A stretch of 64,000 nt of DNA from Limnochorda sp. L945t. GTDB lineage: Bacteria > Bacillota > Limnochordia > Limnochordales > Geochordaceae. Every line of letters begins with the position of its first letter. Positions within the stretch are counted from its first letter, which is position 1. Under the pieces are notes generated by a model. The model did not search any database. It was not told the DNA's origin and was given only the letters and a program-made list of their open reading frames with translations. Made by a program: the position numbers and the translations under genes. Of the stretch, positions 37,164 to 63,737 are shown piece after piece. Where the stretch lies: the NCBI RefSeq assembly GCF_035593305.1, contig NZ_CP141615.1:434001-498000 (forward strand), read 5' to 3'.

Positions 37164-37185
37164 AAGCGGTCGAGGAGGCGTGAAG

Positions 37186-37782
37186 TTGACATCCACCCCG
37201 CACAGCGACCATCGGCCCAGCAGAGAAGAAGCGTGGCGGCTGCTCAACGAGTGGACCCAAAATCCCAACCTCATCAAGCACGCCCTCGCCGTGGAGGCTG
37301 CCATGCGGGCGTACGCCCGGCGTTTCGGCGGCGACGAGGAGCTGTGGGGACTGGCCGGCCTGCTGCACGACATGGACTACGAACGCTTCCCGCAGCTGGA
37401 GGTCCACCCCCTGAAGGCGGTCGAGGCCCTGAAGGCCCGCCAGTACCCGGCCGAGGTCGTCGACGCCATTTTAGGCCACAACAGCCATCACGGCCACCCG
37501 CGCACCACGCCCATGGCCAGGGCGCTGTTCGCCTGCGACGAACTCACGGGCTTCGTCACGGCGGTCGCGCTGGTCCGCCCCTCGAAAAGCCTGGACGACG
37601 TCACGGTAGAGTCGGTCAAGAAGAAGTTCAAGGACAAAGCCTTTGCGCGGGGCGTCCACCGGGAAGAGATTTTCCAGGGGGCGGAGGAGCTCGGCGTCCC
37701 CCTGGACGAGCACATCCAGACGGTAATCGACGCGATGCGAAGCATCAAGGACGAGCTGGGCCTCGACGGCCGGGCGCCCTGA
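37186..37782 (+). CDS. HD-domain protein (HDIG type)
   Basis: 198 residues from TTG 37186, preferred because GAGGAGG lies seven bases upstream; a GTG at 37180 would have almost no spacing. HD phosphohydrolase pattern: NLIKHALAVEAAMRAYA, GLLHDMDYERFP, a further His in GHNSHHGHP. The length and the sequence resemble the stand-alone HDIG proteins whose genes often neighbour nucleotide or tRNA genes. It lies 22 bp after the SDR gene. Substrate unknown. Confidence 0.82.
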   Translation: MTSTPHSDHRPSREEAWRLLNEWTQNPNLIKHALAVEAAMRAYARRFGGDEELWGLAGLLHDMDYERFPQLEVHPLKAVEALKARQYPAEVVDAILGHNSHHGHPRTTPMARALFACDELTGFVTAVALVRPSKSLDDVTVESVKKKFKDKAFARGVHREEIFQGAEELGVPLDEHIQTVIDAMRSIKDELGLDGRAP

Positions 37783-37909
37783 GCCTGGCAGTCCGGGACG
37801 GGCTCCACCGGACGTTGCCGTCCGGGAGCGCCTGCCTGCACAATGAGCCTGCCTGGCTTTCCGGCACCCGTCGCCACCCCGGAGGAGAGGCTGGGGGAGG
37901 CGACCGCAG

Positions 37910-38965
37910 ATGTCTCACCCTTCTGGCGCTCGGGCGGTGGCGCTGGGCCTCGTCGTGGCCTGGCTCGTGACGGCGGCCTCGGGTTGCCGGCTCCTCTCTT
38001 CCCTCGTCGGACGCCCTTCCGACCGGGAGGCCGGGCCCATGCAGGTGGCGGTGTACGTGCCGCCCGAGGCGATGGTGAGCTTACCCGCGCAGCCGCCGAT
38101 GGACCGGGTGAGGGTCACCCTGGTGAAGGACGCCTACGTCCTCTCACAACAACAGCCGCTGTCCGCGGCGGCCGGGGAGCAGACGTACAGCTTCCGGTTC
38201 GATCGGGTGTACGAGGGGACGTGGGACGTGGGGGCCGAAGTGCTCGACGTGGAGGGCGACGTGCCTTACGGGGGGTACGCGAGCGTCACGATCGTGGCCG
38301 GGGGGCAAGCGGCGGTAGACGTGCGGGCGGTGGCGCGGCCGGCCACCTTGCGGGTGTCGATCGATCTGGCGGGCTACCCCGAGCAGGGCCTGGTAACGGG
38401 CGCCGGCATCACCCTCAAGCGCGAGACCTCCTCCACGCTCCAACAGGCACGGCCGGGCGACGCGCTTACCTGGCAGTTCCAACGGGAGCGGCTGCCCGGG
38501 ACCTACGACGCCCGGGTGGCCCTGTACCGGGCGGACGGCGCCGTACAGCTCACGAGCCCGTGGCGCCACGGGCTCGTCTTGCTGCCGGGCAAGCTGACGG
38601 CGCTGCATTGGAGCCCGGCGGCCGGGACGCTTTCGGTCAACGCCGTCGTGGACGGCATCCCTCTGCCGCCCAATCCGGTGACGTGCCAGCCGCTGCCGGC
38701 GGAACGGTCGCTGCGCGTCGGGTGGACGCCTTGCGGCGAGCCGGACGTGCAGGGCCACCGGGTCTACGTGCGGCTCCCGGGTGACGTGCCGTTGCGGATG
38801 GTGGGGGACGTGCCGCTTCCGGCCCGCTCCGCTGACATCCAGGTCGACGGCCTGCCCTGGGACCGCGACGCGGACGTCTACGTCGGGGTCACGGCGGTCG
38901 ACGCCATCGGCCAGGAGAGCCTGCACGCCGCCGGGCTCTGCAGCTTCGGCGCAGCCCAGGGGTAG
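37910..38965 (+). CDS. Predicted lipoprotein with beta-sandwich repeats
   Basis: 351 residues. Signal peptide with lipobox ending ASGC (Cys26), so probably lipid-anchored. The mature part is strand-rich: VRVTLVKDAYVLSQ, YEGTWDVGAEVLDVEG, ASVTIVAGGQAAVDVRA, LRVSIDLAGY, LKLTA-type strands, and a C-terminal FN3-like unit (LRVGWTPCGEPDVQGHRVYV, ADVYVGVTAVDAIGQES). I read two to three Ig/FN3-like domains. Not recognised as any named family. It stands apart from the HD gene (127 bp) and before the FmdB gene, which is on the other strand. Confidence 0.65.
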   Translation: MSHPSGARAVALGLVVAWLVTAASGCRLLSSLVGRPSDREAGPMQVAVYVPPEAMVSLPAQPPMDRVRVTLVKDAYVLSQQQPLSAAAGEQTYSFRFDRVYEGTWDVGAEVLDVEGDVPYGGYASVTIVAGGQAAVDVRAVARPATLRVSIDLAGYPEQGLVTGAGITLKRETSSTLQQARPGDALTWQFQRERLPGTYDARVALYRADGAVQLTSPWRHGLVLLPGKLTALHWSPAAGTLSVNAVVDGIPLPPNPVTCQPLPAERSLRVGWTPCGEPDVQGHRVYVRLPGDVPLRMVGDVPLPARSADIQVDGLPWDRDADVYVGVTAVDAIGQESLHAAGLCSFGAAQG

Positions 38966-39014
38966 AGCCGGCGTGACCGGCGGGCGGCGCCGGCGGAGTC
39001 TTGAGCCGGCGCCG

Positions 39015-39257
39015 TCAGTCGGAGCCGGTCGAGGTGCTGACCGTGGACTGCTCTTTCTTGGCGGCTTCCTTGTACGAACTGCTGCGGTAGTCGGTTACGT
39101 GAAACCCGGAGCCCTTGAAGAGGATGTTGATGTTGCGGCTGATCATGCGGCGCACGGGCCCACCGCACGTCGGGCACCGCTCGAGCGGAGACTCGGTGAT
39201 GGCCTGGAAGGCCTCGAAGCGCCCGCACCGGTCGCACTGGTACTCATAGGTCGGCAT
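39015..39257 (-). CDS. FmdB-family zinc-ribbon protein
   Basis: 80 residues. MPTYEYQCDRCGRFEAFQ and CPTCGGPVRRMISRNINILFKGSGFHVTDY match the FmdB regulator-type zinc ribbon, with two CxxC pairs. The C-terminus is a polar Ser/Thr/Glu/Lys tail. These proteins are of uncertain function; some are linked to FmdB regulation. The start ATG 39257 lies near GAGG. Upstream on this strand is a long inverted repeat and the rhomboid gene. Confidence 0.9.
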   Translation of the reverse strand: MPTYEYQCDRCGRFEAFQAITESPLERCPTCGGPVRRMISRNINILFKGSGFHVTDYRSSSYKEAAKKEQSTVSTSTGSD

Positions 39258-39306
39258 GTCTGCCTCTGGCACCTCCGAGCGTCTGTTGCACTGGTTGCCA
39301 CGTGCA

Positions 39307-39353
39307 AAGTCAGGTCGGCCTGCCCCGCAACAGGCGACAGGCCGACCTGACTT
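39307..39353. repeat. Perfect 16-bp inverted repeat between rhomboid and fmdB genes
   Basis: AAGTCAGGTCGGCCTG (39307-39322) and CAGGCCGACCTGACTT (39338-39353) pair perfectly over 16 bp around a 15-base loop; the loop also holds a second copy of CAGGC, so the 3' arm could form a shorter alternative pairing. It lies downstream of the rhomboid gene and upstream of fmdB (both minus strand). It may be a terminator working in both directions, because A/T bases flank the stem, or a regulatory palindrome. Confidence 0.7.
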
Positions 39354-39419
39354 CGACCGCATCTACCTCATTATGCTAGCGAGGCTCGTCCCCGTGCGCA
39401 AGCGGGCCGCACGGGACGC

Positions 39420-40139
39420 TCACCAACCGTACGGGAGCGGGGGGCGCCGCTCGACCCTCCACCACTTGATCAGCAGGAGCCCCGTCAAGAAGCCTCCGAT
39501 ATGGGCGAACCACGCCACTCCCCCGACCAGGGTCGGGGCGGCGGTGACCGCCAGAGCCCCGTTCCATATCTGGATCACGAACCAGAAGAGCAAGAAGATG
39601 CCCGCGGGGATCTGCACCACCGTGATGAAGAAGAAGATGGGCACGAGCGTGCTCACCCGGGCCCACGGGTACAACAGCCAGTACGCCCCCAGCACCCCGG
39701 CGACCGCTCCGCTCGCTCCCACGGTCGGCACGGTGGCGCCGGCGGCGACGAGCGACTGCAACAAGGCCGCAGCGGTACCGCCGAGCAGGTAGAAGAGCAG
39801 GTAACGGCCGTGCCCCAGGCGGTCCTCGACGTTGTCCCCGAAGATCCAGAGGTACAGCATGTTGGCGCCGACGTGAAGCCAGCCGGCGTGGATGAACATG
39901 GACGTGAAGATGGTGAGCCAGGCCGGAGGGAGCGCGACGCCGGCCGCGCTGATCTGTGCCCAGTTGCCGTCGGCCAGCCCCCACAGGCGCGCCGGTATGA
40001 GACCCCACTGGTACAAAAAGAGGCTCGACTGGCGGCCCAGGGTCAGCTCGTAGAAAAAGACGATGAGATTGATCCCGACCAGCAGCTTGTTGACGAACGG
40101 GTATCGCCGCGTCGGGATGTTGTCACGGAGCGGTATAAT
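39420..40139 (-). CDS. Rhomboid-family intramembrane serine protease, ATT start
   Basis: 239 residues from ATT 40139. The conserved rhomboid N-terminus (I)IPLRDNIPTRRYPFVNKLL and the first membrane helix are in frame upstream of any standard start; AAGGAGG lies eight bases before the ATT, and no ATG, GTG or TTG is in frame there. Catalytic Ser143 in GASGAVAGVLG and His213 in FAHIGGFLTG are intact, and six to seven helices are seen (TSMFIHAGWLHVGANMLYLW contains the HxxxN-like helix). It cleaves membrane proteins. The ATT also overlaps a TATAAT on the other strand. Confidence 0.9.
   Translation of the reverse strand: MIPLRDNIPTRRYPFVNKLLVGINLIVFFYELTLGRQSSLFLYQWGLIPARLWGLADGNWAQISAAGVALPPAWLTIFTSMFIHAGWLHVGANMLYLWIFGDNVEDRLGHGRYLLFYLLGGTAAALLQSLVAAGATVPTVGASGAVAGVLGAYWLLYPWARVSTLVPIFFFITVVQIPAGIFLLFWFVIQIWNGALAVTAAPTLVGGVAWFAHIGGFLTGLLLIKWWRVERRPPLPYGW
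40134..40139 (+). promoter_or_regulatory. Possible -10 element for the HD gene
   Basis: A perfect TATAAT, 39 bp before the ATG at 40178, overlapping the ATT start of the divergent rhomboid gene. No convincing -35 at 16-18 bp. Could be part of the reason for the unusual rhomboid start codon. Confidence 0.3.
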
Positions 40140-40177
40140 GGTGGCAACCTCCTTGCAGGGACGGGCCCGCCCACAGC

Positions 40178-41461
40178 ATGCGCGAAAAGATCCTGCGGGA
40201 CCCGGTGCACGACATCATCGCCGTGCAGGACCCGTTGCTCCTGCACCTCATCGACACGCCGGAGTTCCAGCGGCTCCGCCGGCTTCGGCAGCTCGGCACC
40301 GCCGCCGGGACCTACCACGGTGCGGAGCACTCGCGCTTCGGCCACTCGCTCGGCGCCATGCACATCATGGGCAAGGTCCTGGCCCGTTTGCGCCAGTCGG
40401 CCCACCTCCGCATCGACGAGCAGCTGGAGCGCCTGGCGAAAACGGCTGCTCTGCTCCATGATATCGGACACGGGCCGTTTTCGCACGGGCTCGAGCGCGT
40501 GCTGACCCCCACCCTGGGGCACGAGCAGTGGACCCGGGCCATTCTGGAAGGCCCCACGGCGGTGCGGCAACTGCTGGAAGAGGAGGACCCCGCGCTTCCG
40601 GGCCGCATCGTGGGGCTGTTGCAGGGTATGGTCCCAGGGGATCTCCGATGGCTGCACCATCTGGTGGCAAGCCAGCTCGACGTCGACCGGATGGACTACC
40701 TGCTGCGAGACGCGCTGTACACAGGCGCCTTCTACGGGCGATTCGACCTCGAGCGGCTCATCAGCACCCTGACCTGGGCGCAGGGGCAGGTGGTCTTCTC
40801 CTACAAGGGGATCCCCACGGCCGAGGAATACGTGCTGGCCCGCCACTACATGTACTGGCAGGTCTACTTCCACAAGACTACCCGGGCGCAGGACCTGGTG
40901 CTGCGGGCGGCCTGGGATCGTGCCCGGGAGCTGTGGGCCGCAGGTCGCCTGGAGGCAGGCAGGGACGTGCCGGACGCCCTGGTGCCCTTCTTCGAAGGCC
41001 GGCCAGACCTGGGCGAGTACCTGTCCGTCGACGACGTGGACGTCTTCTTCGCCCTCAAGACGTGGGCACGGCATCCGGATCCCATCCTGTCGGACATGGC
41101 CTCCCGCTTCTTGCACCGGCGCTTGCTCAAGCCGGTCTTTCGCCAGGCCCGGCCCGCCATCGACCCCGAGTGCCTGCGACAGGCGAGGCAGGTGGTGGCA
41201 GGCAAAGGATGGAATCCCCACTACTACTGCCTGGTGGACCGGACGTCGGACGTAGCGTACGACTTCTACACCGAAGGAGGTGAGCCGCCGGCCAAGGCGC
41301 CGATTTACGCGCTGGACGAGTTTGGACGTCTCCAGGAGATCTCGCGGATGAGCGCGATCATTCGTACTGTCGCCACCAGGCCTCGCAGCGCGATGAACCT
41401 GTACGTCCCCGAGGAGTGCAGGCAGGCGGTCGCCGACCGGATCCTGGCCGATGAACGCTGA
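40178..41461 (+). CDS. HD-superfamily phosphohydrolase (dNTPase-like)
   Basis: 427 residues. N-terminus KILRDPVHDIIAVQDPLLLHLIDT, PEFQRLRRLRQLGTAAGTYHGAEHSRFGHSLG, then ALLHDIGHGPFSHGLE and QLDVDRMDYLLRDALY: the four-His/Asp set of the SAMHD1/YdhJ-like HD phosphohydrolases. The C-terminal half is a helical domain with HYYCLVDR. Probably hydrolyses (deoxy)nucleotides; exact substrate unknown. The stop overlaps the start of the next gene by 11 bp. Confidence 0.92.
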   Translation: MREKILRDPVHDIIAVQDPLLLHLIDTPEFQRLRRLRQLGTAAGTYHGAEHSRFGHSLGAMHIMGKVLARLRQSAHLRIDEQLERLAKTAALLHDIGHGPFSHGLERVLTPTLGHEQWTRAILEGPTAVRQLLEEEDPALPGRIVGLLQGMVPGDLRWLHHLVASQLDVDRMDYLLRDALYTGAFYGRFDLERLISTLTWAQGQVVFSYKGIPTAEEYVLARHYMYWQVYFHKTTRAQDLVLRAAWDRARELWAAGRLEAGRDVPDALVPFFEGRPDLGEYLSVDDVDVFFALKTWARHPDPILSDMASRFLHRRLLKPVFRQARPAIDPECLRQARQVVAGKGWNPHYYCLVDRTSDVAYDFYTEGGEPPAKAPIYALDEFGRLQEISRMSAIIRTVATRPRSAMNLYVPEECRQAVADRILADER

Positions 41462-43061
41462 AGCGGCCGGGGGATCAAGTCGTTGTGCTGGCGGGCGCTC
41501 GTCCCCACCGGACGGGCGTGAGCACTGGCGCGCCCTGGCCGGCGAGGCGACGGCGGTGCTGGCCCTCTTCTTGGTGGCCGCCCAGGGGCGACCTGCACCG
41601 CTGGTGGTAGCCGCCGGATACGCGCTGGCGGGTCTGCTGGCGTGGGCGGGCATTCGCACCAGGAACGCCGCGTGGGAATGGGGAGCCGCCGCCGCGAGCC
41701 TGGCTGGCATCCTCGGCGGCGCCCGCCTCGTGCCCGCCTCGTTTGCCCCGGAGGCTGCGGCCCTCGGGCTGATGCTGTGGGGCGTCACGTGGGGGCTGCG
41801 CTTGAGTCCCGCCCGCCCGTGGGGGCCCGTGCTCGGGGCATGGATGCTCCTGGGGCTGGAGGCGTGGTTGGGAGCCGGCAACGGGACGGCCGTGGCTCAC
41901 TACCGAGGGCTCCATCTGGGGCTGTGGACGGGGGCCGCCGTCCTGCAGGCGTGGCTCGCCGGCCGTCTGGCGTCCAGGACCGAGGCGCAGAGCCGCCAGC
42001 GAGCCCGGCACCTGGCGACCCTCCATGAGATCACGCGGGCCATGGCGCGCCCGATGCAGCTGGAGCCGCTGTTCGAGACGATCCACCGGGAGGTCTCCCG
42101 GGTCATGTCCGCGGACGCGTTCATCATCGCGCTCTACGAGGCAGAGCACCAGCTGCTGCATGCGGCGTTCATCTACGACAAGGGGATGCGGTACCCGGCC
42201 CAGCGGTACCCGGCCGACGAGGGCCCCACCGCGGAGGTGGTGCGGACCGGTAAGCCCCTGTTCCTCAACCGTGGCCCGGAGGAGATGGCCCGCCCGGTGC
42301 CGGGCAAGCGGATCATCGGCGCGCCGGAGGAGCCACTGTCCGTCATCATCGTTCCCATGACGCTCGAGGGGAAGGTGCTGGGCACCATCTCCGCCCAGTC
42401 TTACCGGCCTCGGGCCTATACGACCGAAGATTTCGAGCTCCTGGCCACCATCGCCGGGCAGGCCGCGGTCTACGTCCAAAACGCTCGCCTGTACGAGCGT
42501 ACCGCGGAGCTGGCCCTGACCGACCCGATGACCGGCCTGGGCAATGCCCGGATGCTGCAGCAGACCCTAGAGCAGGAGCTGGCCCGCTGCAGGCGCTCCG
42601 GGCGACCGTTGAGCCTGATCATGTTCGACTCGGACGACCTCAAACAGGTCAACGACCGCTACGGGCACCTGGTGGGCGATCGGTTCCTCAACCTGCTCGC
42701 CGACATCATTCGCACCCGCGTACGGGCAGGGGACGTGGTGACCCGTTACGCCGGCGACGAGTTCGTGGTCATCCTGCCGGAGGCCCGCATGGACGAAGCG
42801 ACGCGCGTCGCCGAGCGCATCGTCTCGGCGGTCGCATCCACCCCCCTGGTGACGGAGTCGGGCGAGAAGGTGTACACGACCATCAGCGCCGGCGTGGCGA
42901 GCTATCCCGAGTGCGCCGAGACGGGCACCGATCTCATGTGGAGCGTGGACCGGGCCCTGTACGCCTCGAAGCAGGCCGGCAAGGGGCGCATCACCTGCTC
43001 CAAGCCGCGCGGCGCTCCGCCGCCCGTCAAAACTTCAGACCAGCCCCCGCCGTCAGCGTGA
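41451..43061 (+). CDS. GAF-GGDEF diguanylate cyclase with N-terminal membrane region
   Basis: 536 residues, ATG inside the preceding HD gene. Residues about 30-180 contain four or five hydrophobic helices. Residues about 195-350 look like a GAF domain (LEPLFETIHREVSRVMSADAF). The GGDEF domain carries AGDEF at 434-438 (active A-site, first Gly replaced by Ala as in many active enzymes) and the I-site RAGD at 425-428, exactly five residues before, so it should make c-di-GMP and be feedback inhibited. Its 3' end overlaps the convergent exported-protein gene by 35 bp. The HD phosphohydrolase upstream is translationally coupled to it. Confidence 0.92.
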   Translation: MNAEAAGGSSRCAGGRSSPPDGREHWRALAGEATAVLALFLVAAQGRPAPLVVAAGYALAGLLAWAGIRTRNAAWEWGAAAASLAGILGGARLVPASFAPEAAALGLMLWGVTWGLRLSPARPWGPVLGAWMLLGLEAWLGAGNGTAVAHYRGLHLGLWTGAAVLQAWLAGRLASRTEAQSRQRARHLATLHEITRAMARPMQLEPLFETIHREVSRVMSADAFIIALYEAEHQLLHAAFIYDKGMRYPAQRYPADEGPTAEVVRTGKPLFLNRGPEEMARPVPGKRIIGAPEEPLSVIIVPMTLEGKVLGTISAQSYRPRAYTTEDFELLATIAGQAAVYVQNARLYERTAELALTDPMTGLGNARMLQQTLEQELARCRRSGRPLSLIMFDSDDLKQVNDRYGHLVGDRFLNLLADIIRTRVRAGDVVTRYAGDEFVVILPEARMDEATRVAERIVSAVASTPLVTESGEKVYTTISAGVASYPECAETGTDLMWSVDRALYASKQAGKGRITCSKPRGAPPPVKTSDQPPPSA

Positions 43062-53633: not shown

Positions 53634-54185
53634 ATGGGGCCCGTACGGGCATCCGCTCATCCAACAGGAAGCATCAGGCCGTCACTCGACCGGTGCACGA
53701 CCGTCGTGGCGCTGGTCGGCGTGGCCGTCCTGGCGGCCCTGGTAGCAGCGACGGGGGGTGCTCTGGCGATGGATCGCCAGGTCCAGCTCCAGGTAACGAT
53801 TCAGGAGGCGATGGAGCTCGAGGTGAGCCCACAAGGCCCGATTGCGTGGGCGGTGGCGCCGGGTTCCCCCTCCCCGGGGGGCGGTACCCTCCAGGTGGTG
53901 GTGAGGTCCAACGTACCCTGGGATCTTACGGTGAAGGGCCACAGCGACAGGCCGAAGACCGCCGGCGCGGTCCCGGCCACAGGCTCGATGCAGTTCCGTG
54001 TGGACGGCGGAGAGGCCAGGACGCTGACCACCTCGGCACAAGGGGTCGCTCGAGGAGATCTGCCGACCGGGAGCGGGGGGAGGCAGGTCGGCGTGACCTT
54101 CGTGTACGTGCCGTCCTACGAGGACAGGGTGGGCGAGACGCTCACGATGGACGTGACGTTCACCCTGGCGCGACCCGTCCCGTGA
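53634..54185 (+). CDS. Small exported beta-rich protein (candidate surface/pilus subunit)
   Basis: 183 residues from ATG 53634 (GTG 53625 or 53622 also possible). A hydrophobic signal segment at about residues 24-45 is followed by a 138-residue mature domain. It begins with QVQLQVTIQEAMELEVSP, contains TLQVVVRSNVPWDLTVKG, and ends VGVTFVYVPSYEDRVGETLTMDVTFTL, which resembles the beta-strand pattern of fimbrial/spore-coat-U-like or WxL-type subunits. No lipobox, no cysteines. Family not recognised. First gene of a three-gene block with a chaperone-like and a large barrel protein. Confidence 0.6.
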   Translation: MGPVRASAHPTGSIRPSLDRCTTVVALVGVAVLAALVAATGGALAMDRQVQLQVTIQEAMELEVSPQGPIAWAVAPGSPSPGGGTLQVVVRSNVPWDLTVKGHSDRPKTAGAVPATGSMQFRVDGGEARTLTTSAQGVARGDLPTGSGGRQVGVTFVYVPSYEDRVGETLTMDVTFTLARPVP

Positions 54186-54214
54186 GGGCTCTGGGAAGGA
54201 GGGCACGGGGCAAC

Positions 54215-55390
54215 ATGATGCCGTACCGGTTCGCCGGAAGGTGCCCATGGTGGCTCTGTGTGACGCTCCTGGCGGCCGCTGGCCTGGTGACGGGGATCGA
54301 GCAGCCCTGCCGGGCCTTGCTGAGGGTCACTCCGTTGACGGTGACGGCGGTCGTGGACCATGCCGGGGAGCGAGTCGGGCCCATCTTCGTGGGTAACCGG
54401 GGTGACACGCCGCTGCCCGTGCGCGTGGGGATAGCTATGCTAACGCATTCCCCTGAAGGGCGGCCCGTCGTCCTGGAGGAGCCCGGGCACCTGGCCCGCG
54501 CCCGGGAGTACCTCGGGCCGGAGTGGACCGAGCGCGTACTTGCCCCCGGCCAGCAGGAGACGCTGTGGCTTTCGGTGCGGCGGGTGCCGGAGTCGGCCAT
54601 CTACAGCGCGGTGCTGGTACAGGTGCCGGCTCCCCTGGGTACCTTCCGGGTGGTCGTCCTGGTGGGAGTGCGCCGTGCCCGTCCCGCGCGCGGTCCGCAG
54701 CTTTCCATCGAGGCGGTGTGGGCGGAGCAGAGCAAAGAGGGGGACCCGGTGGAGATCGTTGCCCGAGTGCGCAACGACGGCGGGACGGACGCCGAGGCGG
54801 TGATCGAGAGCGTGATCACGGCCGAGTCGGGGCCTGGGGCAGGAAGAGGACCTCAGGCAGCGCTCTTGATGGGTCCCGCGACGGTCTACCCCGGCGCGGT
54901 GCGGCTCCTCCGGGCCCGCTGGCAGCCCGACCTGCTCCCTGCCGGGGTCTACCGCGTATCGGCGAGCCTGGCCGGCACCCGGGGCGCAGGAAAGGCCGGC
55001 GGAGCCACCGCGAGCCTGACGGTCGATGCACCGTATCGCCTCGCCGGGGTCGACGGTGCTGTGAGCCTGCAGCTCAGGCCCTCCCGGGACGGCAGCATGA
55101 CGCTCGTGGCCTCGGTGCACAACCGGAGTCCTCACACGCTTGCGCCGCAGCTCGAGTGGTACATCGAGCGGGATGGGGCCCGGACGGCGCAAGACCCGGT
55201 CCTGCTGGGGCCGGTGGACGCGGGAGAAGTGAGGGTAGCCCGCCTGCCCTGGCCGGGCCCCCTGGCCCCGGGGGCCTATCGGGCGGGGGTACGCTGGATC
55301 CTCGGCGAGCGGGAGGTCGCGCGGGACGATCTCGTGGTCACCGTCGAACCGGCCCTGGCCCTCCATCCGAGCGGGGTCGATGTCCCATGA
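54215..55390 (+). CDS. Exported Ig-fold protein, PapD/DUF916-like (candidate assembly chaperone)
   Basis: 391 residues from ATG 54215 or 54218; AAGGAGG is upstream. Signal peptide at about residues 12-35. Residues about 37-145 resemble a periplasmic-chaperone or DUF916-type domain: LRVTPLTVTAVVDHAGERVG, IFVGNRGDTPLPVRVGI, APGQQETLWLSVRRVPESAIYSAVLVQV. This is followed by CARDB-like units with VRNDGGTDAEAVI and VHNRSPHTLAPQLEW. The stop overlaps the next start (ATGA). I infer a role in folding or guiding the small subunit; the classical PapD cysteine/arginine pattern is not obvious. Confidence 0.55.
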   Translation: MMPYRFAGRCPWWLCVTLLAAAGLVTGIEQPCRALLRVTPLTVTAVVDHAGERVGPIFVGNRGDTPLPVRVGIAMLTHSPEGRPVVLEEPGHLARAREYLGPEWTERVLAPGQQETLWLSVRRVPESAIYSAVLVQVPAPLGTFRVVVLVGVRRARPARGPQLSIEAVWAEQSKEGDPVEIVARVRNDGGTDAEAVIESVITAESGPGAGRGPQAALLMGPATVYPGAVRLLRARWQPDLLPAGVYRVSASLAGTRGAGKAGGATASLTVDAPYRLAGVDGAVSLQLRPSRDGSMTLVASVHNRSPHTLAPQLEWYIERDGARTAQDPVLLGPVDAGEVRVARLPWPGPLAPGAYRAGVRWILGEREVARDDLVVTVEPALALHPSGVDVP

Positions 55391-58300
55391 GCCACACGGG
55401 CGGTAGGGCCGTTTCGGGGCGCTTCGTGCTTTGCGCGCTGCTTGGGCTCTCGTTTGCGGCCGTCCCGGTCCGTGCATGGGAGGTGGACATGCCCCCGGGA
55501 GGTGCTCCCGTGCTCTTGCCGGCCGATCCGGTGCGCCCCGGCACGGGCGCCGTCGTGGGACACGTCGGGTTCCTGGTGCCGAAGGGGCTGGTCTCGATCA
55601 TTCCCGAGCCCCAGGCACCCGCTCTGGTCAGCCAGGGTCCCGAGGGGACGTTTCGGCTTCCCTTGAACCGGCTTCAGTGGGGCCTGCGCTGGTACGAAGG
55701 CCAGGTACCGGACTTCACCCCGCTGACGTACCCGGGTACGGGGCGCCAGGTAAACGTGCCTGCCGAGACCGTCGCCCACATCGAGTGGAGGTTCCGGCCC
55801 GAATGGACGGATCGGGCCGCCTCCGCTCCTTACTCCGTTCCCGTGCGCTACACGCTTCAGCCGAGCGGGGTGACCCTCGACCCTGTCCTGGCATGGCCCA
55901 ACCCTTACGTCAAAGGCTCTACGCAGCCGTTACAGGTCTACGCTGACGTCCCGGGCCAGGGCGCGATCTGGGTCAGACTGGGCCCGGCCGCGCCGGGCAC
56001 CCACTGCAGCGTCTTGACGCCGTGGGACGTGTTGGCCGGGCCGGTAGGGTCCGGATGGCAGATGCTGGAGGTCCCGGCCTCCAAGGTCACCGGCCTGCCC
56101 GTGGGTCTGTATTGCGTGGTGGTGGATTTCTGGCAGCGGGGACAGGCCCGGCGGCGGATTGGAGGCACGACGGTCCTGCTCGTCGAGAGCGGGGCGGTCG
56201 CTCAGGCGCTCGAGGTCCAGGTCCGCGACGCCGCGGATGGCAGGCCGGTCAACGGGGCTCTGGTGACCTTGAGGCGCCCGGGGGGACCGCCGGGGCGGTC
56301 GGGCCGCTCCAACGGGCAGGGGAGCCTGACTTTCTCCGGTCTGGATGCCGGCGTCTACCGAGTAGAAGCCGAGGCGCCGGGTTACCGGAGAGCGGCCGGG
56401 GAGGTCCGGGTGCCGCCTGCCGATGCACGGGTGCAAAGCGCCGCTAAGGCCGAACTGTTGCTCCGGCCCGCTGACACGCCCTCTATCCGGCTGGCGATGC
56501 GCAACCTCGCCGGGCGGCGGGCCCTGTGGGTCGGCGACGTCGTCGAGATCGACGCCAGCGTGGAGTTTGCGCGGGGCCTGCCGGATCTCGTGCCGGGGGG
56601 CGAGCCGTCTGTCCTGGTGGAGCTCCGCTTTCCTTCCGGGCTGCAGGTCCTCCCCGATTCGTGGCGGCCATCCCCGGGGGGAGACGAGGATCACCGCCGT
56701 CAGACGATCGGGTGGAGCGAAGGGAGGCTGCTCTGGCAAGTGGGCGTTCCTCGAGGGAGCGCGACCTCGTCGCTGTCGGTGCGGGCGATGGTGACGCCCG
56801 AAGCGGCGGGGCGAGGCGAGGTGGAGGTGATCGCCCGAGGCACGATGCGCTACGGGCGTTTCGAGGCGTCTCTTGCGCCCGCGTCCACCTCCTTGCCCTT
56901 GTCCCGGGAGCTGGTGGACGGGCACGGGGTGGTCGTTGGCCGCGTGGAGCCCGCGAGCGGGCAGGACGAATGGGTGGTGGCCTCGAGCCTCGGCGTGTCG
57001 GCCAGGGTCGACCGGTCGGGTTTTTTCCGCATGGCGCTGCCGGCAGGCGTGCACATGCTGTGGGTCGAGCGCCCGGCGGCGGCACGGGGGGATCACGAGC
57101 CAGTCCGGATACCCCGGGGAGAGCCGGCCATCCTCGTCGTCCGGCCGGGTGTGAGTGCGCCCGCGGTGCTCGCCGCTCCTTCTCCCGGTGCTCGACCGGC
57201 AGGAGGGTCGCCGGCGTGGCGCGTCGACGCGGCAGGCCGGATGGAGTGGACCTCCGGCGCGGCACCAGACGGCAACGGCTCGCTTTTGGTCACGGTCGGT
57301 GCCGGAGAAGCGAGGGGGCAGCTGGTCGTTGCTGCAGGGCCGGATGGCCGCTTGCCGGCACGGCTGGAGTGGGGGACGGCCCTCCACGAGGTGACCGCAG
57401 GGCTGCTCGACCCGGCCAGGGGGGATCGCGTGCAGCCTCCGGCAGTGGACGGGCGTCTGCTGCAGCCCCCCTCTTCCGACACCGGGGATGGCGGGGGCCT
57501 GGTTCCGGGCGTTGCGTGGGAGTGGGAGGCTGGCGATGCCAGAGGGTCCGGGTTGGTGGCTACGTGGCGGCTCGACGGCGGACAGAGCTTCGTACAGGCC
57601 GTCGACCGGCGGGACGAGAAGCAAACGACCTGGCTGACCGTTACGGGCCCCATGGCCTCCGGGCAGGGGGGGCAAGGCCCGGCTCTGCACGCAGGGTGGC
57701 GGCGTAGCGACGAGGACAAGAGCGAGGCTCAAGTGGAGTACCGGATGAGCCTTGATCCGGGCCGGCCCATGGACCCGGCCGGATACCCGGTCCCGGTCGA
57801 CGGGCTGCCGCCAAGCGCGTGGACGGCCAGGCTCGTCACTCCATGGGCAGGAGGGAGGGATACCGCGTGGCAGACGTGGGAAGCGGGCGGGGAGACGGGG
57901 CTCGCAGGCCCCGGAGCGGGGGGCGGCCGCACCACGGTGGAGTGGAGCGCGGCCCGGCTCGCGACCGGCGGTCTGGCCCACCGTTTGGGGCTTGGTGCGG
58001 ACATGGGGCGCTTCACCCAGCTGTACGGGATGGGCAGCCTGCTGTGGCACTCCGCCGATGACGCGCGGGATCCCGCCAGGTTGCGGCAGGCCCTGGCGGT
58101 AACCGCCACGCCCGAAGGCTCCTCGCTCCCGAGCTCCCTCGCGGGCGCGGTCCGGTTGGATGCCCGGGCAGGCCTGGCAGTCGGGCAGGGCGATGGCGGG
58201 TGCGAGGCCGTTCCCCGGGTCTATCCCGTCGCCCGCCTCACTGCAGCCGCGGCAGGCCCGGCCGCGCCGAGGGGACGCTGGTCCCTGGGGGTGGATGCCA

Positions 58301-59241
58301 GGACTCTCCACGAGGGGCAAGGCGGGGCGCCTGCTACCGCCTGGATCGATCTCGCCGCTTCGCTCTCCCGGAAGCTGGACCTGCGCGTGCAGGGTAGGGT
58401 GGAGGCAACTTTTTCGGCCTATGGCCTTCGCCTGACCCCGGGGACCCGGGTGGAAGGGGCTTTGCAGCCGTCGAGCGGGGTGCGGCTGGCCACAGGGCTC
58501 GAGGCCCGTCCGGAAAGGCTGCGGCCGTCCCATCTCGCGATCGAGTACAACCCCCGGTGGGGCACGGTGGCGCTTCGGCTCACTCCCGAACAGGCCGAGC
58601 TCTCGTGGACCCGCGCCGGCCCTGCACCCGAAGAGACCGGTGCAACCGGGGCCGTCAAGCGGTGGTCCGGAGCGTTCTCCCTGCGGCGCCGTTCCGGCGG
58701 GGCGGTGGAGCCGGATCCGACAGCGTTGGTCGCCGAGGGACGCCTCCTGTACGGGAGCGAGCGCATGGCGGCCTCGGTCTGTGCGCGCTTCGAGGGCGAG
58801 GTGGCCGAATGGTCGGCCTCAATCGGGGACCATCCCGGCCCTTCCTCCGAGGCAGGGCGCTGGCTGCGGGCCTCCCCTGGCCGGTACCTGCGGGGCGACG
58901 TTCGCGTCACGCCTGCTGGGGAGGGCTACCGGGCCTGGACGTGGATGGGGCATGCAGGCATCCGGGGCCTGCTGGCGGAGCGGTGGGGATGGTTCGCAGA
59001 GGGTGGGGCCGCTTCCCTGACGCTGGAGCCGGGCGGCTGGTCCCTGCACCGGAGCGCGTCGTTCGGCGCCGGCCTTTTCGTGGTGAGCCGGGAGAGCCTG
59101 CTCGAGATGGGATGGCGCCTGGTGAAAGCGCCGGGGGAGCCGATGCGGCCGGGCGACCTTCCCGCTTCCATGCGCCCGGGTCTTTTCGTGCGGACGACCG
59201 GGTGGTGGAGCTCGGACCCCGGCGGTGCCGGTGGCCGGTAG
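55387..59241 (+). CDS. Very large exported protein with carboxypeptidase-regulatory-like domains and C-terminal barrel-like region
   Basis: 1284 residues, ATG overlapping the preceding stop. Signal peptide (about 12-30, FVLCALLGLSFAAVPVRA). Residues 40-255 are strand-rich. Residues about 275-345 form a CarboxypepD_reg/PEGA-like domain (LEVQVRDAADGRPVNGALVT, GLDAGVYRVEAEAPGYRRA). Residues about 359-492 look like a DUF11/adhesive Ig-like domain; a second short regulatory-like unit (GVVVGRVEPASGQ, LPAGVHMLWVERP) is near 514-585. Residues about 605-1284 alternate hydrophobic strands and turns, as in a large outer-membrane barrel. No FimD motif or Omp85 POTRA is evident. Candidate usher/secretion pore of the block. 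Confidence 0.5.
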   Translation: MSHTGGRAVSGRFVLCALLGLSFAAVPVRAWEVDMPPGGAPVLLPADPVRPGTGAVVGHVGFLVPKGLVSIIPEPQAPALVSQGPEGTFRLPLNRLQWGLRWYEGQVPDFTPLTYPGTGRQVNVPAETVAHIEWRFRPEWTDRAASAPYSVPVRYTLQPSGVTLDPVLAWPNPYVKGSTQPLQVYADVPGQGAIWVRLGPAAPGTHCSVLTPWDVLAGPVGSGWQMLEVPASKVTGLPVGLYCVVVDFWQRGQARRRIGGTTVLLVESGAVAQALEVQVRDAADGRPVNGALVTLRRPGGPPGRSGRSNGQGSLTFSGLDAGVYRVEAEAPGYRRAAGEVRVPPADARVQSAAKAELLLRPADTPSIRLAMRNLAGRRALWVGDVVEIDASVEFARGLPDLVPGGEPSVLVELRFPSGLQVLPDSWRPSPGGDEDHRRQTIGWSEGRLLWQVGVPRGSATSSLSVRAMVTPEAAGRGEVEVIARGTMRYGRFEASLAPASTSLPLSRELVDGHGVVVGRVEPASGQDEWVVASSLGVSARVDRSGFFRMALPAGVHMLWVERPAAARGDHEPVRIPRGEPAILVVRPGVSAPAVLAAPSPGARPAGGSPAWRVDAAGRMEWTSGAAPDGNGSLLVTVGAGEARGQLVVAAGPDGRLPARLEWGTALHEVTAGLLDPARGDRVQPPAVDGRLLQPPSSDTGDGGGLVPGVAWEWEAGDARGSGLVATWRLDGGQSFVQAVDRRDEKQTTWLTVTGPMASGQGGQGPALHAGWRRSDEDKSEAQVEYRMSLDPGRPMDPAGYPVPVDGLPPSAWTARLVTPWAGGRDTAWQTWEAGGETGLAGPGAGGGRTTVEWSAARLATGGLAHRLGLGADMGRFTQLYGMGSLLWHSADDARDPARLRQALAVTATPEGSSLPSSLAGAVRLDARAGLAVGQGDGGCEAVPRVYPVARLTAAAAGPAAPRGRWSLGVDARTLHEGQGGAPATAWIDLAASLSRKLDLRVQGRVEATFSAYGLRLTPGTRVEGALQPSSGVRLATGLEARPERLRPSHLAIEYNPRWGTVALRLTPEQAELSWTRAGPAPEETGATGAVKRWSGAFSLRRRSGGAVEPDPTALVAEGRLLYGSERMAASVCARFEGEVAEWSASIGDHPGPSSEAGRWLRASPGRYLRGDVRVTPAGEGYRAWTWMGHAGIRGLLAERWGWFAEGGAASLTLEPGGWSLHRSASFGAGLFVVSRESLLEMGWRLVKAPGEPMRPGDLPASMRPGLFVRTTGWWSSDPGGAGGR

Positions 59242-59298
59242 ACCCCGGCAGGCATCCCCCGTTACAATATCGCGGGATACCGGAAGGGGCATTTCGCT

Positions 59299-60051
59299 TT
59301 GAGCTTGCGGCGCCAGATAGTCGCCATCCCCGTCTTCAACGAGGAGCGGTCCGCCAGGCAGGTGCTCGAGCGAGTGCGGGAGGTCGCACCGCAGGCCGTC
59401 GTGCTGGTGGTGGACGACGGCTCTACCGACGGCACGGCTTCGGTGCTGGCGGGCATACCCGGGATCGCGGTACTCCGGCATCCCCGCAACCTGGGGTATG
59501 GCCGCGCGCTACGGGACGCTTTCGATTGGGCCCAGTCCTACGGGTTCGATCAGCTGGTGACCATGGACTGCGACGAGCAGCACGAGCCGGCCCTGATCCC
59601 TGCCTTCTTCCGGCGCCTGGAGGAGGGATGGGACATCGTCTCCGGGAGCCGCTACCTGGCGCGCGTGGCCGGGAGCGAGGGCGAGGTGCCGCTCGACCGG
59701 CTGGCGATCAACCGGGAGTTCACGGCCCGCGTCAATGCGCTGACGGGTTTCGGGATCACGGATGCGTTTTGCGGGTTCAAGGGATACCAGGTAAGCGCCT
59801 TACGGCGCTTGCACCTCTCGGAGGACGGATATGCGATGCCCCTGGAGGTTTGGGTGGAGGCCTGGCGGCACGGGCTGAGCATCGTAGAGCTGCCGGTGCC
59901 CCTCATCTACAAGCCCAACTTCGAGCGCCGTTTCGGTCGGGGGCTCGACGACCCCTCGGCGCGACGGCGCTACTACGACGACGTGTGGCGCAGGGCCGTC
60001 CGGGCCGACGGCTGTCCGGCGGTCGCCAGGAGGCAGGCCGGGTGTTGCTGA
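59299..60051 (+). CDS. Family 2 glycosyltransferase (dolichol-phosphate mannose synthase-like)
   Basis: 250 residues, TTG start with GGAAGGGG nine bases upstream. Cytoplasmic GT-A: IVAIPVFNEERSARQVLERV, VLVVDDGSTDGT, RHPRNLGYGRALRDAF, TMDCDEQHEPALIP (the DxD-like acidic motif) and GSRYL. No C-terminal membrane helices, so it is the short form. Transfers a sugar from a nucleotide sugar to a lipid or other acceptor. Nine bases before the PIG-L gene start overlap region (60042), so the two are coupled. Confidence 0.9.
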   Translation: MSLRRQIVAIPVFNEERSARQVLERVREVAPQAVVLVVDDGSTDGTASVLAGIPGIAVLRHPRNLGYGRALRDAFDWAQSYGFDQLVTMDCDEQHEPALIPAFFRRLEEGWDIVSGSRYLARVAGSEGEVPLDRLAINREFTARVNALTGFGITDAFCGFKGYQVSALRRLHLSEDGYAMPLEVWVEAWRHGLSIVELPVPLIYKPNFERRFGRGLDDPSARRRYYDDVWRRAVRADGCPAVARRQAGCC

Positions 60052-60812
60052 GCGACCCTGCCGGCGCGCCGGGGTCGCCCCCCTCGCTGCCCATCGAGGC
60101 GCTGTACGGGACCGGACTGGATCGTCCCGTCGACGTGCTTGCCGTCGGAGCCCATCCGGACGACGTGGAACTGGCCGTCGGAGGCACGGTGGCTGCCTTC
60201 GTCGCCCGCGGCCTCTCGGTGGGCATCCTGGACCTGACCAACGGCGAGCCGACGCCGTTCGGCAGCCCCGAGCGGCGGCGGGCGGAGAGCCATGAAGCCG
60301 CTCGCATCCTGGGGGTGCAGACCCGCGTCACGCTGGCGCTTCCCAACCGCGCCCTGCAGGACACCGTCGACGGCCGCACGGCCGTGGCCTCGGTGCTCCG
60401 CCTGCTCCGGCCCAAGCTGTTGCTCGGACACTACTGGGAGGACCTGCACCCCGATCACGTAGCGGCGTCGGCGTTGACCGACGCGGCGCGCTTTTACGGC
60501 AAGCTGACTCGCACCTCGATGCCGGGCGAGCCGTACCTGGTACCTCGCGCCCTTTACTTCGTCGCGACCCACCTGCGCCTGCACGCGCCCGCCTCGCTGG
60601 CGGTGGACGTCTCCGCCTTCTGGGAAGAGCGCAAGCTACCCGCCGTCGAGGCATACACGTCGCAATTCGGGGTCAACGAGGCGGGCCGCGCCGTGCCCGA
60701 GCGGTTGCGCACCCGGGATCGCTACTACGGCGACCTGATCGGCTGCCGGTACGCCGAGCCGCTCATCGCCCGGGAGCTCGCCGGCGTGGCGGACCCATCG
60801 GCGCTCGTTTGA
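60042..60812 (+). CDS. PIG-L family deacetylase (BshB-like)
   Basis: 256 residues from GTG 60042, overlapping the previous gene by 10 bp, with AGGAGG eight bases upstream. Zinc deacetylase motif VLAVGAHPDDVELAVGGTVA near residue 30, later HYWEDLHPDHVAAS, then HAPASLAVDVSAFWEERK and AVEAYTSQFG. This is the order of BshB1 (GlcNAc-malate deacetylase in bacillithiol synthesis) and also of other LmbE-type enzymes. Followed directly by the BshC-like gene, which raises the probability of a thiol-related role, but bshA is not seen. Confidence 0.88.
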   Translation: MLLSDPAGAPGSPPSLPIEALYGTGLDRPVDVLAVGAHPDDVELAVGGTVAAFVARGLSVGILDLTNGEPTPFGSPERRRAESHEAARILGVQTRVTLALPNRALQDTVDGRTAVASVLRLLRPKLLLGHYWEDLHPDHVAASALTDAARFYGKLTRTSMPGEPYLVPRALYFVATHLRLHAPASLAVDVSAFWEERKLPAVEAYTSQFGVNEAGRAVPERLRTRDRYYGDLIGCRYAEPLIARELAGVADPSALV

Positions 60813-60823
60813 GATGAGAAAGG

Positions 60824-62563
60824 GTGGGGACGGTCTCGTTGGCGCCACATCCATCCCGCCGGCCATGGACCCTGCCGCCTCTCGGGGAGGCCCTGGTGGA
60901 CCCGCCGGCGCCTGCGCTGGCGGAGCTCGCCGCCCGCAACGCGGAAGCGCTGGAGGCGGAGCGGTTCGACGTAGGGGGAGTCCCGGCCGCCGAGCTGCGG
61001 GGAGCGCTACGGCAGGCGGCGCTGGCCATAGGCACCAGGCAGGCTCGCCGCTACGGGTGGTGGGAAGGCCCGAGCGCAGGTAACCACGCCACCCACGGGC
61101 CCGTCCGGCCCTTGCGCTGGATGGTCACCGGACACCAGCCGATCCTGGCCCACCCGGGCATCGTGGTCAAGAACGCGCTGATCGGGGCCCTCGCACGCAC
61201 CGTGCCCGGCGCGGTCGCCGTCAACGTGGTCGTGGACTACGACACCGCGGCCCAGATGGCGGCGCCGGTCCCCGTTCGCAAGGAGGGGCGCCTCACCGTT
61301 GAGCCGGTCACGCTTGCCCCGGTGGGCTACGGGTATCCCTTTTGCCAGGTGCCGGCGCCCGGGGCGAGCGAGCTCGACGCGTTCGCCTCCGGCGTGGTGG
61401 AGCGGCTCGCTACCCTGGGGCAGCCCGGCGAGAGCCTCATCCGCCGGTTCCTGGAATTCATGCGGGTCGCCGCCGCCCCTCCGAGGACGGGCGGCGACCG
61501 GGAGGCGCCCGCCAGCCTGGCCGAGTGGGTGACCGCTGCCCGCCACCGCTTCGAGGCCATGGCGCTCGGGGCTTACGCGGAGTACCTCGAGGTACCGGCA
61601 GGAGAGCTGACCTCGACCTGGCCGTTCCGGCTCTTTTTCGCCGACGTGGCACTACGGGCTCGGGAGTTCGCCCTCATTCACAACGAGACGCTGGCGGCGT
61701 ACCGGTCGCAACATCACATCCGTTCCAGGGCCAATCCCTTCCCGGACCTGCTGGTCGAGCCGGCGGGCGGGCGGGTGGAACTGCCCTTCTGGATACTGAC
61801 GCCGGGCCTCCGCCGGCGCAAGCTCTACGCGAGGCAGGACCGCTCCCGCCGGGACGCCCTGGAGCTATCGACGGTGGATGGCCCGGTGGCAGAGCTGCCT
61901 CTCTCCCGGCCGGATGGCGCCCGGGAGCTCGCCGAGGCCCTGGAGCGGGCGGGATTGGCCATCCGCCCCCGGGCGGTGACGCTGACCCTGTTCGTGAGGC
62001 TGTTCCTGGCCGACCTGTTCGTGCACGGGGTGGGGGGAGCCCGCTACGACCGGGTGACGGACGCCGTGGCCCGGCGGTTCTACGGCATCGAGCCGCCCCC
62101 TTACGCCGTGGCTTCCATGAGCCTGGCGCTGGCCGACCTGCCGCGGCCCGAAATCGCGGAGCCGCCGGATCAGCTGCGCCGGCAGCTGCGCGACCTGCGC
62201 TTCAATCCGCAACGGTGGGTGGCTCCCGGCGAAGCCGACGACACGCTGGCGCGGCTTGCCGAAGAGAAGAGGCGGCTCGTCCGGGCCATCCAGCAGCCGG
62301 GAGCTCCCCGGCGCGCGCTGACGCGGCAGATCGAGCAGGTCAATGCCGCGCTGTCCGAACGGCTGGAAGGGGTCCGCGTAAACATCGAGGCCCGCCTCCG
62401 GCAGGCGACGCTCGCCGTGCTCGAGAGGCAGGCCTCGGACTTTCGGGGATACCCGGTCTTTTTCTACGACCCGCTCCTGTTGCGGCGGGCCATCGAAGAG
62501 GCGATCAGCGGGCGCCGCCTCGCCCCGTGCGCCGGCGACGCGCCGCTGCGCGGCCACCCGTGA
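60824..62563 (+). CDS. BshC-like protein (GHQP...HPG...KN family), function uncertain
   Basis: 579 residues; GTG 60824 has an overlapping GAAAGG and TTG 60839 is an alternative. Near residue 100 it has WMVTGHQPILAHPGIVVKNALI, which recalls the TGHQ...GP motif of bacillithiol synthase BshC, but the downstream pattern differs (VVVDYDTAAQ) and looks closer to an uncharacterised family I recall from other bacteria. A long coiled coil (residues about 460-545: LAEEKRRLVRAIQQ, QIEQVNAALSERLEG, LAVLERQASDFRG) precedes the C-terminus, as in BshC. Overlaps nothing; follows the PIG-L gene by 11 bp. Confidence 0.55.
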   Translation: MGTVSLAPHPSRRPWTLPPLGEALVDPPAPALAELAARNAEALEAERFDVGGVPAAELRGALRQAALAIGTRQARRYGWWEGPSAGNHATHGPVRPLRWMVTGHQPILAHPGIVVKNALIGALARTVPGAVAVNVVVDYDTAAQMAAPVPVRKEGRLTVEPVTLAPVGYGYPFCQVPAPGASELDAFASGVVERLATLGQPGESLIRRFLEFMRVAAAPPRTGGDREAPASLAEWVTAARHRFEAMALGAYAEYLEVPAGELTSTWPFRLFFADVALRAREFALIHNETLAAYRSQHHIRSRANPFPDLLVEPAGGRVELPFWILTPGLRRRKLYARQDRSRRDALELSTVDGPVAELPLSRPDGARELAEALERAGLAIRPRAVTLTLFVRLFLADLFVHGVGGARYDRVTDAVARRFYGIEPPPYAVASMSLALADLPRPEIAEPPDQLRRQLRDLRFNPQRWVAPGEADDTLARLAEEKRRLVRAIQQPGAPRRALTRQIEQVNAALSERLEGVRVNIEARLRQATLAVLERQASDFRGYPVFFYDPLLLRRAIEEAISGRRLAPCAGDAPLRGHP

Positions 62564-62757
62564 CGCCACAGCCTCGGTGGCTCACCCATCTCCTCCTGCT
62601 GCACCTCGACCAGCCGATCCGTGGTCAACCGGTCCCGGGGCTCCAGAGCTTGGTCGGCGGGGTCTTCCTCCCAACCGACCTCGAGTTGCCGGTCCAGGAA
62701 CTCTTCCCGGCGGTGCTCCTCATCCTGGATCACCCTCCGGAAGGAGCCGTCCGCCAT
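62464..62757 (-). CDS. Possible small antisense ORF
   Basis: 97 residues from ATG 62757, with AAGGGGG eight bases upstream. N-terminal 65 residues are acidic (ADGSFRRVIQDEEHRREEFL, LEVGWEEDPADQALEP); the last 30 run antisense into the BshC-like gene. No family known. It is the only candidate in the 337-bp stretch between 62563 and 62901, where I otherwise see no gene or clear structure. Coding status is doubtful. Confidence 0.25.
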   Translation of the reverse strand: MADGSFRRVIQDEEHRREEFLDRQLEVGWEEDPADQALEPRDRLTTDRLVEVQQEEMGEPPRLWRHGWPRSGASPAHGARRRPLIASSMARRNRSGS

Positions 62758-62900
62758 GGCTCGCGCCCCCTTTCCAAGGCAACAGGCGCCCGCCCAAACG
62801 CCATCCTACTTGCAGAGAAGGTGGCGCCCGGCAGGCGCAAAACCATTCTAACCGGCCCGCCCTGGCGGGGCAAGTTGAGGGAGAGGAAGGACATTCGCCC

Positions 62901-63737
62901 ATGACGGATCCCGGGCCGCGAGCCGAAATCGGAGTCTTCGGGGGCTCCGGATTCTACCAGATTGCGGACGACGTGCAAGAGCTGTGGGTCGAGACGCCCT
63001 ACGGGCCTCCCAGCGACAAGATCTCGATTCTGACCATCGGCGGGCGGAAAGTGGCCTTCCTGCCGCGCCACGGCAGGGATCACCGCTACCCGCCCCACCG
63101 GGTGCCGTACCGGGCCAACCTCTGGGCCATGAAGAGCCTGGGGGTGAGCCGTATCGTCGGGCCCTGCGCCGCCGGCAGTCTGCAGCCCGACATCCCGCCC
63201 GGCACGTTCGTGCTGTGCGATCAGTTCGTCAACCGGACGTGGGGGCGGCAGGATACCTACTTCGAGGGGCCGGTCGTGACGCACATCGGCGCCGCCGACC
63301 CCTACTGCCCCGAGATGCGCCAGGTCGCTGCCGGGGTGCTGGCGCGCCTCGGCATCCCCCACCGCACCGGTGGGACCGTGGTGGTCGTCCAGGGCCCTCG
63401 CTTCTCCACCCGGGCCGAGAGCCGGGAGTTCAGGGAGCATGGCTGGCACGTCATCAATATGACCCAGTACCCCGAGGTGATCCTGGCGCGGGAGCTCGGG
63501 ATGTGCTACCTCAACGTCTCGTTGGTGACGGACTACGACGTGGGCCTCGAAGGGCATCCGGAGGTGCATCCGGTGAGCCACCAGGAGGTGCTGCGGGTGT
63601 TCAACGCCAACCTGGAGCACCTGCGCACGTTCTTGTGGGAGCTCGTTCCGGCGATACCCCAGGAGCGGCGCTGCAGCTGCCGGCGCGCCGTCCAGGAGGC
63701 GCGCGGCGAGCCCGAGCTCCCCGGAGGCCGGCAGTAA
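62901..63737 (+). CDS. mtnP: S-methyl-5'-thioadenosine phosphorylase MtnP
   Basis: 278 residues. Phosphorolysis of MTA to adenine and methylthioribose-1-phosphate in methionine salvage. IGVFGGSGFYQIADDV, FLPRHGRDHRYPPHRVPYRANLWAM, VVVVQGPRFSTRAESRE, WHVINMTQYPEVILARE and LVTDYDVG are characteristic. RBS GAGGAAGG is ten bases before ATG 62901. A single ca. 30-residue C-terminal tail is added. With metK and ahcY it completes SAM-related salvage in the region. Confidence 0.93.
   Translation: MTDPGPRAEIGVFGGSGFYQIADDVQELWVETPYGPPSDKISILTIGGRKVAFLPRHGRDHRYPPHRVPYRANLWAMKSLGVSRIVGPCAAGSLQPDIPPGTFVLCDQFVNRTWGRQDTYFEGPVVTHIGAADPYCPEMRQVAAGVLARLGIPHRTGGTVVVVQGPRFSTRAESREFREHGWHVINMTQYPEVILARELGMCYLNVSLVTDYDVGLEGHPEVHPVSHQEVLRVFNANLEHLRTFLWELVPAIPQERRCSCRRAVQEARGEPELPGGRQ

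Follow-up and report, generated by a model that had tools for sequence, protein, structure and literature searches.

Three consecutive genes of Limnochorda sp. L945t, here called A, B and C, raise the question of whether they encode one surface-assembly machinery and, if so, which known system it most resembles. The window, that is, the whole stretch of 64,000 nucleotides analysed here, covers positions 434001-498000 of a single-contig genome of 3.31 Mb. As the initial annotation had described, the three genes lie on the same (plus) strand, B and C overlap by ATGA and all three products are predicted to be exported (Table 1); the coordinates and the N-terminal signals agree on this, each protein beginning with a basic segment and then a hydrophobic one. 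A-x-A cleavage motifs are clear in A (GALA/M) and C (PVRA/W), the cleavage site of B being less clear. The host of this gene set is a diderm from a deep-branching group of Firmicutes; an outer membrane has been seen by electron microscopy in cultured Limnochordia (PMC11456536), and Omp85 is encoded at a single locus of the genome (2.73 Mb), outside C. Pfam and NCBIfam scans of A, B and C returned one match above the cut-off, the CarboxypepD_reg domain of C, and the expectation that none of the three proteins would match classical subunit, usher or Omp85 models proved correct. The genes 3' of the operon (window 58557-63737), judged by eye, resemble a GT2 glycosyltransferase, the bacillithiol enzymes BshB1 and BshC and an MTAP-like phosphorylase, and are unrelated to the operon.

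Table 1. Features of the A-B-C locus, by window position, and of the related Deinococcus plasmid operons
Feature	Position	Strand	Basis or remark
Gene A, secreted small beta-sandwich subunit	53634..54185	+	183 aa; mature from ~residue 47
N-x-x-W-x-[LI] motif of A, residues 93-98	53910..53927	+	N and W invariant in 22-sequence alignment
Gene B, WxLIP/PapD-like two-domain sandwich and third CARDB-like Ig domain	54215..55390	+	391 aa
B domain 1, DUF916/PapD_N-like, ~residues 36-160	54320..54694	+	hhalign: WxLIP domain 1 E 2.6e-6, chaperone domain 1 E 1.3e-5
B domain 2, Ig-like; conserved N187, R230	54695..55024	+	WxLIP alignment spans domain 2
B domain 3, repeat homologous to domain 2	55025..55369	+	hhalign domain 2 vs domain 3 E 7e-16
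Gene C, large envelope protein, probable C-terminal outer-membrane barrel	55387..59241	+	1284 aa
A-like domain of mature C, N-terminal, ~residues 31-160	55477..55866	+	homologous to A by hhalign
CarboxypepD_reg domain of C, residues 275-349	56209..56433	+	Pfam PF13620 E 4.3e-16
Candidate beta-barrel region of C, residues 600-1284	57184..59238	+	position, alternation z 2.3, repeated strand pattern in homologues
Deinococcus plasmid operons	L154:6276-11849; L155:6398-12083		four genes, annotated mostly hypothetical

Conservation of the gene set

The near-identical relative, in the MAG Limnochordaceae Bu05, was the sole match of a genome scan with the single B sequence. Within the class Limnochordia (73 genomes), a single-sequence B search found relatives in 28 genomes, whereas profiles detected B-type proteins in 62 and A in 58, some of the A matches being the A-like domain within C-type ORFs. 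In gene maps of the relatives, built with a simple ORF caller, B lies directly downstream of A on the same strand in 42 of the 45 strong A matches from the class (gap 0-213 nt), the exceptions being two matches at contig ends and one genome with A and B on separate contigs. A C-type ORF of 566-1480 aa follows 3' of B in nearly all A-B loci of the class in which the contig continues. The gene set is not a product of chance, homologous A-B pairs being present in most genomes of the class, and the three-gene order is conserved, a result that the initial annotation had named as support for its proposal. Upstream of the locus, metK or ahcY is found in several families, which makes the locus look vertically kept, unlike a roaming fimbrial operon. 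At one locus (L139:8167-12782, genome G125) the order is B, C, A and a run of N falls inside the C-type gene; because of this run, the two ORFs of 308 and 754 aa found there were taken as a single C gene probably split by the gap.

Beyond the class but within the same phylum, a minority of genomes also carry A (44 of 398 in an even phylum sample that includes some class members). A and B are adjacent at most of these outside loci, with a large gene usually, not always, behind the pair. Homologues standing singly among unrelated neighbours, the pattern that the initial annotation held to speak against a joint system, were absent for A-B and were seen for C only in some lineages outside the class. 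These distributions bear on an alternative in which the three products are Ig-rich secreted proteins of a generic kind, inherited together through their position and sharing no joint assembly mechanism. Ig-like domains do yield weak cross-matches, and the conserved housekeeping synteny around the locus could keep neighbours together; such an explanation is nonetheless very improbable, given that the pairing of A with B is retained in Deinococcus and, beyond the class, in many different genomic surroundings, that the A domain is present in C and that B matches a specific two-domain partner protein.

Affinities of protein B

B had been expected to start with a PapD/DUF916-like sandwich, and this was confirmed, the DUF916-type two-domain similarity (E 1e-9 to 1e-8) being stronger than the PapD-type one. 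Searching the PDB with a profile of the class-level B alignment gave nothing convincing. When phylum-level relatives were added (alignment A5, 31 sequences), the B profile matched EfmWxLIP1 with E 1.4e-9 over 214 residues, covering both WxLIP domains, a match obtained only after that addition. Comparison by hhalign with seven natural WxLIPs, from Lactiplantibacillus and Enterococcus plasmids, gave a probability of 96% and E 2.7e-9 over 244 columns (reversed-target control 0.08); the WxL loci were retrieved with a consensus query written from general knowledge, and the comparisons used natural sequences only. A subset of B proteins without the most PapD-like members still matched WxLIP (E 3e-7), and the similarity of the single B sequence to WxLIP lies below Pfam detection. 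That B is a distant homologue of WxLIP (DUF916+DUF3324) is, by these profile comparisons, well supported. The C-terminus of B (...VEPALALHPSGVDVP) contains no hydrophobic helix, so the C-terminal transmembrane helix of WxLIP is absent, and domain 3 is missing from the short B homologues of family f13.

The extended B profile also aligned with seven E. coli K-12 chaperones (E 2.8e-7, 180 columns; reversed control 0.18). Against the classical chaperones only, the match was weaker (E 1.4e-5), with domain 2 alone at 0.18, the similarity residing mainly in domain 1; a generic Ig control, comprising the N-terminal Ig domains of the outer-membrane-protein (OMP)-like proteins of locus L140 and of Deinococcus, matched B at E 4e-5. 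Because the PapD match is mostly confined to domain 1 and the generic control comes this close, a relationship of B to PapD-type chaperones is plausible but not secure. The classical G1 lysine of the chaperones is not conserved in B; archaic chaperones likewise lack the classical Arg/Lys pair (PMC4654587).

The subunit A and the large protein C

The small protein A had been described as cysteine-free, which holds for the mature protein, its one Cys (residue 21) lying in the signal peptide. Residues P76, N93, W96, T145 and G149 are invariant in a 22-sequence alignment (A1), and a Tyr at position 170, before the last strand, is nearly invariant, although it is Leu in the copy from the window. 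Two motifs of A recall those of WxL domains: N-x-x-W-x-[LI] resembles the first W-x-L motif, and the C-terminal Y-x(5)-[YF]-T-[ALV] resembles Y-x(5)-W-x-L. This is a resemblance only, the profile comparison with WxL being not significant. Across the A family, the W of the first W-x-L-like motif is present in 29 of 37 sequences and Y/F replaces the W of the second in 29 of 37, so that A does not show both W-x-L motifs of a WxL domain. Profiles of WxL or pilins matched A at E about 0.01 or worse, no better than controls. A pilin-family assignment of A gained no support, as ten E. coli fimbrial subunits gave non-significant values (E 0.009-0.04) and no fimbrial or SCPU Pfam match rose above noise. 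A PDB search with the class-level A alignment returned nothing meaningful, and a Foldseek search with the low-confidence AlphaFold2 model (pLDDT 48, from two near-identical rows) found nothing below E 0.01.

The first domain of C is homologous to A, as judged by hhalign (E 8.8e-16 local, 1.1e-15 global; reversed control 0.22), and A-profile matches within the large downstream ORFs of ~15 genomes agree with this. In C homologues the A-like domain is followed by FlgD-Ig, CarboxypepD_reg and DUF11-type domains; the carboxypeptidase-regulatory-like domain noticed earlier in C was detected, as a single copy. The last 350-850 residues of C-type proteins are strand-rich, and the strand-rich region of ~680 residues that had been pointed out in C itself corresponds to residues about 600-1284, where the sequence alternation agrees. 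C probably ends in an outer-membrane barrel. An excess of alternation is found in most C homologues, but the Ig part shows the same, and a count of amphipathic strands fails to separate the two; the AF2 model of the candidate barrel, built from two near-identical rows, was uninformative (pLDDT 28). A PDB search with the C profile returned only Ig domains of the SdrD/NOMO/FlgD type and weak noise, and Pfam detected no SLH domain in C, the SLH matches of the genome lying at 2.71 and 1.21 Mb. An assignment of C as an Omp85/POTRA protein was discarded, C having no Omp85 Pfam match and the only Omp85 locus of the genome lying elsewhere. In the short C proteins of family f13 only ~345 aa are available for a barrel; the profile comparison of long with short C was not significant, and barrel homology between them is accordingly not claimed.

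Related operons and the proposed assembly system

At two further loci, L136 and L140, B is accompanied by several A-like genes and by a gene for an OMP-like protein, so that they look like subunit-chaperone-platform operons. Their OMP-like proteins (L140:8885-11797 and L136:6402-8561) have a strand-rich middle followed by two SdrD_B domains, which match in position the two C-terminal domains of ushers. On two Deinococcus plasmids we found an operon of X (subunit-like), B, S and an OMP-like protein of 1013-1090 aa with SdrD_B-type domains. Deinococcus B matches the B profile at E about 1e-40, and S is A-like at E 2e-10 in one operon and weakly so in the other (E 0.01).

The layout of subunit, chaperone and large outer-membrane protein is common to A-B-C and the classical, alternative and archaic chaperone-usher pathways, and these loci could be taken to extend the parallel, with C as a gated pore that receives A from B and translocates it for assembly into a pilus by donor-strand exchange. 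The gene order, the resemblance of B to PapD-type chaperones, and the L136, L140 and Deinococcus loci, which combine several subunit-like genes with an OMP in which two SdrD_B domains come after the barrel region, would all fit such an usher analogue. We nevertheless consider it unlikely. C showed no similarity to six E. coli ushers (E at least 0.03, near the reversed controls), PF00577 (FimD/PapC usher) is absent from the genome, and the PapD_N and Usher Pfam models, which both detect E. coli among the control genomes, have no match in the host. The N-terminal domains of C are unlike the usher N-terminal domain, and the f13 barrels would have ~14-18 strands, small for the passage of folded subunits, which argues against a wide translocation pore. 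A-B-C differs from chaperone-usher systems also in the lack of pilin homology, and no Firmicutes are listed among the phyla that have them (PMC4654587). The proposal of a chaperone-usher-like surface system thus stands as far as the conserved exported three-gene set in a diderm Firmicute and the B sandwich are concerned; C as an usher, A as a fibre subunit and pairing by donor strand gained no support.

The closest known system is instead WxL/WxLIP, which the initial annotation had missed, as it had the A-like start of C. WxL/WxLIP clusters of Lactobacillales comprise a small WxL protein, a WxLIP (DUF916+DUF3324), to which B is homologous, and a large WxL protein; in some Enterococcus mundtii clusters they come in that order, so that these clusters share the subunit-partner-large protein order of A-B-C. 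In both systems the large protein repeats the domain of the small one, although the repeated WxL domain is C-terminal in large WxL proteins and the A-like domain of C sits at the opposite, N-terminal end. Where the large WxL protein ends in a WxL domain, C ends in a probable outer-membrane barrel; further differences are the diderm host of A-B-C, the lack of detectable WxL homology of A by profile and the lack of a C-terminal membrane helix in B.

The conserved genes and their order, the homology between B and WxLIP, the domain shared by A and C, the diderm host and the Deinococcus operons lead us to read A-B-C as a system of diderms that is related to the WxL/WxLIP surface platform and operates on a chaperone-usher-like principle, an explanation to which we give roughly an even chance. 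B would be a periplasmic partner of the WxLIP/PapD superfamily whose binding stabilises an incomplete Ig-like fold, both in free A and in the A-like domain of C; the model for this is WxLIP, for which a strand that completes the WxL sandwich has been predicted (PMC10599100). C would be held in the outer membrane by its C-terminal barrel and act as the fixed base, where its A-like domain joins A subunits or seeds them, and A would decorate the envelope, either coating it or forming short fibres on it. Several observations count against this reading: the low confidence of the models of A and of the C barrel (pLDDT 48 and 28), the lack of detectable relatedness of A to WxL or pilins, the lack of usher similarity of C, the ~345 aa of barrel space in f13, the A-B pairs of some lineages outside the class that have no large gene beside them, the missing membrane helix of B, and its PapD similarity, lying mostly in domain 1 with an Ig control at 4e-5.

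The same parts could also serve as an outer-membrane tether, with free A and the A-like domain of C binding peptidoglycan and C providing the link to the outer membrane. OmpM tether porins, found in diderm Terrabacteria, the same lineages as A-B-C, join the outer membrane to peptidoglycan through an SLH domain and a 16-strand barrel (PMC10628300), and their arrangement of N-terminal periplasmic domain(s) and C-terminal barrel in one chain is paralleled in C by a putative periplasmic binding domain, spacer Ig domains and a probable C-terminal barrel. Binding to peptidoglycan has been reported for WxL domains (PMC10599100), and adjacency to metK/ahcY in several families would be expected of a core envelope part. 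However, C has no reported SLH domain, shows no coiled-coil stalk by eye and is encoded together with a subunit and a partner of its own; tethering would require neither free A nor a dedicated B, the SLH-domain proteins of the genome could fill that role, and A and WxL gave no significant profile match. A tethering function therefore seems improbable to us.

Under the WxL/WxLIP-relative reading, the superfamily of B and a logic resembling two known systems are familiar, and what is new is the combination of parts. No system that unites a WxLIP-type partner, a non-WxL subunit and an outer-membrane protein repeating the domain of the subunit turned up in the open-licence literature searched, an absence that is weak evidence. 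The question of how bacteria with one membrane arose centres on diderm Firmicutes, and A-B-C would be a widespread surface system in this group, undescribed in that literature, whose helper is related to Gram-positive WxLIPs and, more weakly, to Gram-negative pilus chaperones. It would connect, in a way open to testing, two strategies of surface display that have been regarded as separate, and would suggest a function for many conserved genes to which no curated family corresponds over their whole length. Together with its Deinococcus relatives it might, although we think this less likely than not, represent an ancient diderm assembly system, with B as the evolutionary link between PapD-type pilus chaperones and the WxLIPs of monoderm Firmicutes. 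If true, the WxL platform would be a remnant of an outer-membrane surface assembly machine left after loss of the outer membrane.

A second B-type locus was observed on the minus strand of the same genome (G000:C1:about 36900-43000; L167:5939-12014). It encodes two secreted proteins (336 and 288 aa), a protein of 564 aa in which two WxLIP/PapD-like units stand in tandem, a secretin of 447 aa (PF00263 E 8e-47) and an OMP-like protein of 308 aa, and may be a secretin-coupled relative of A-B-C. Its order is repeated in another genome (L056, G004), and tandem-B ORFs of ~500-670 aa are found in most genomes of the class.
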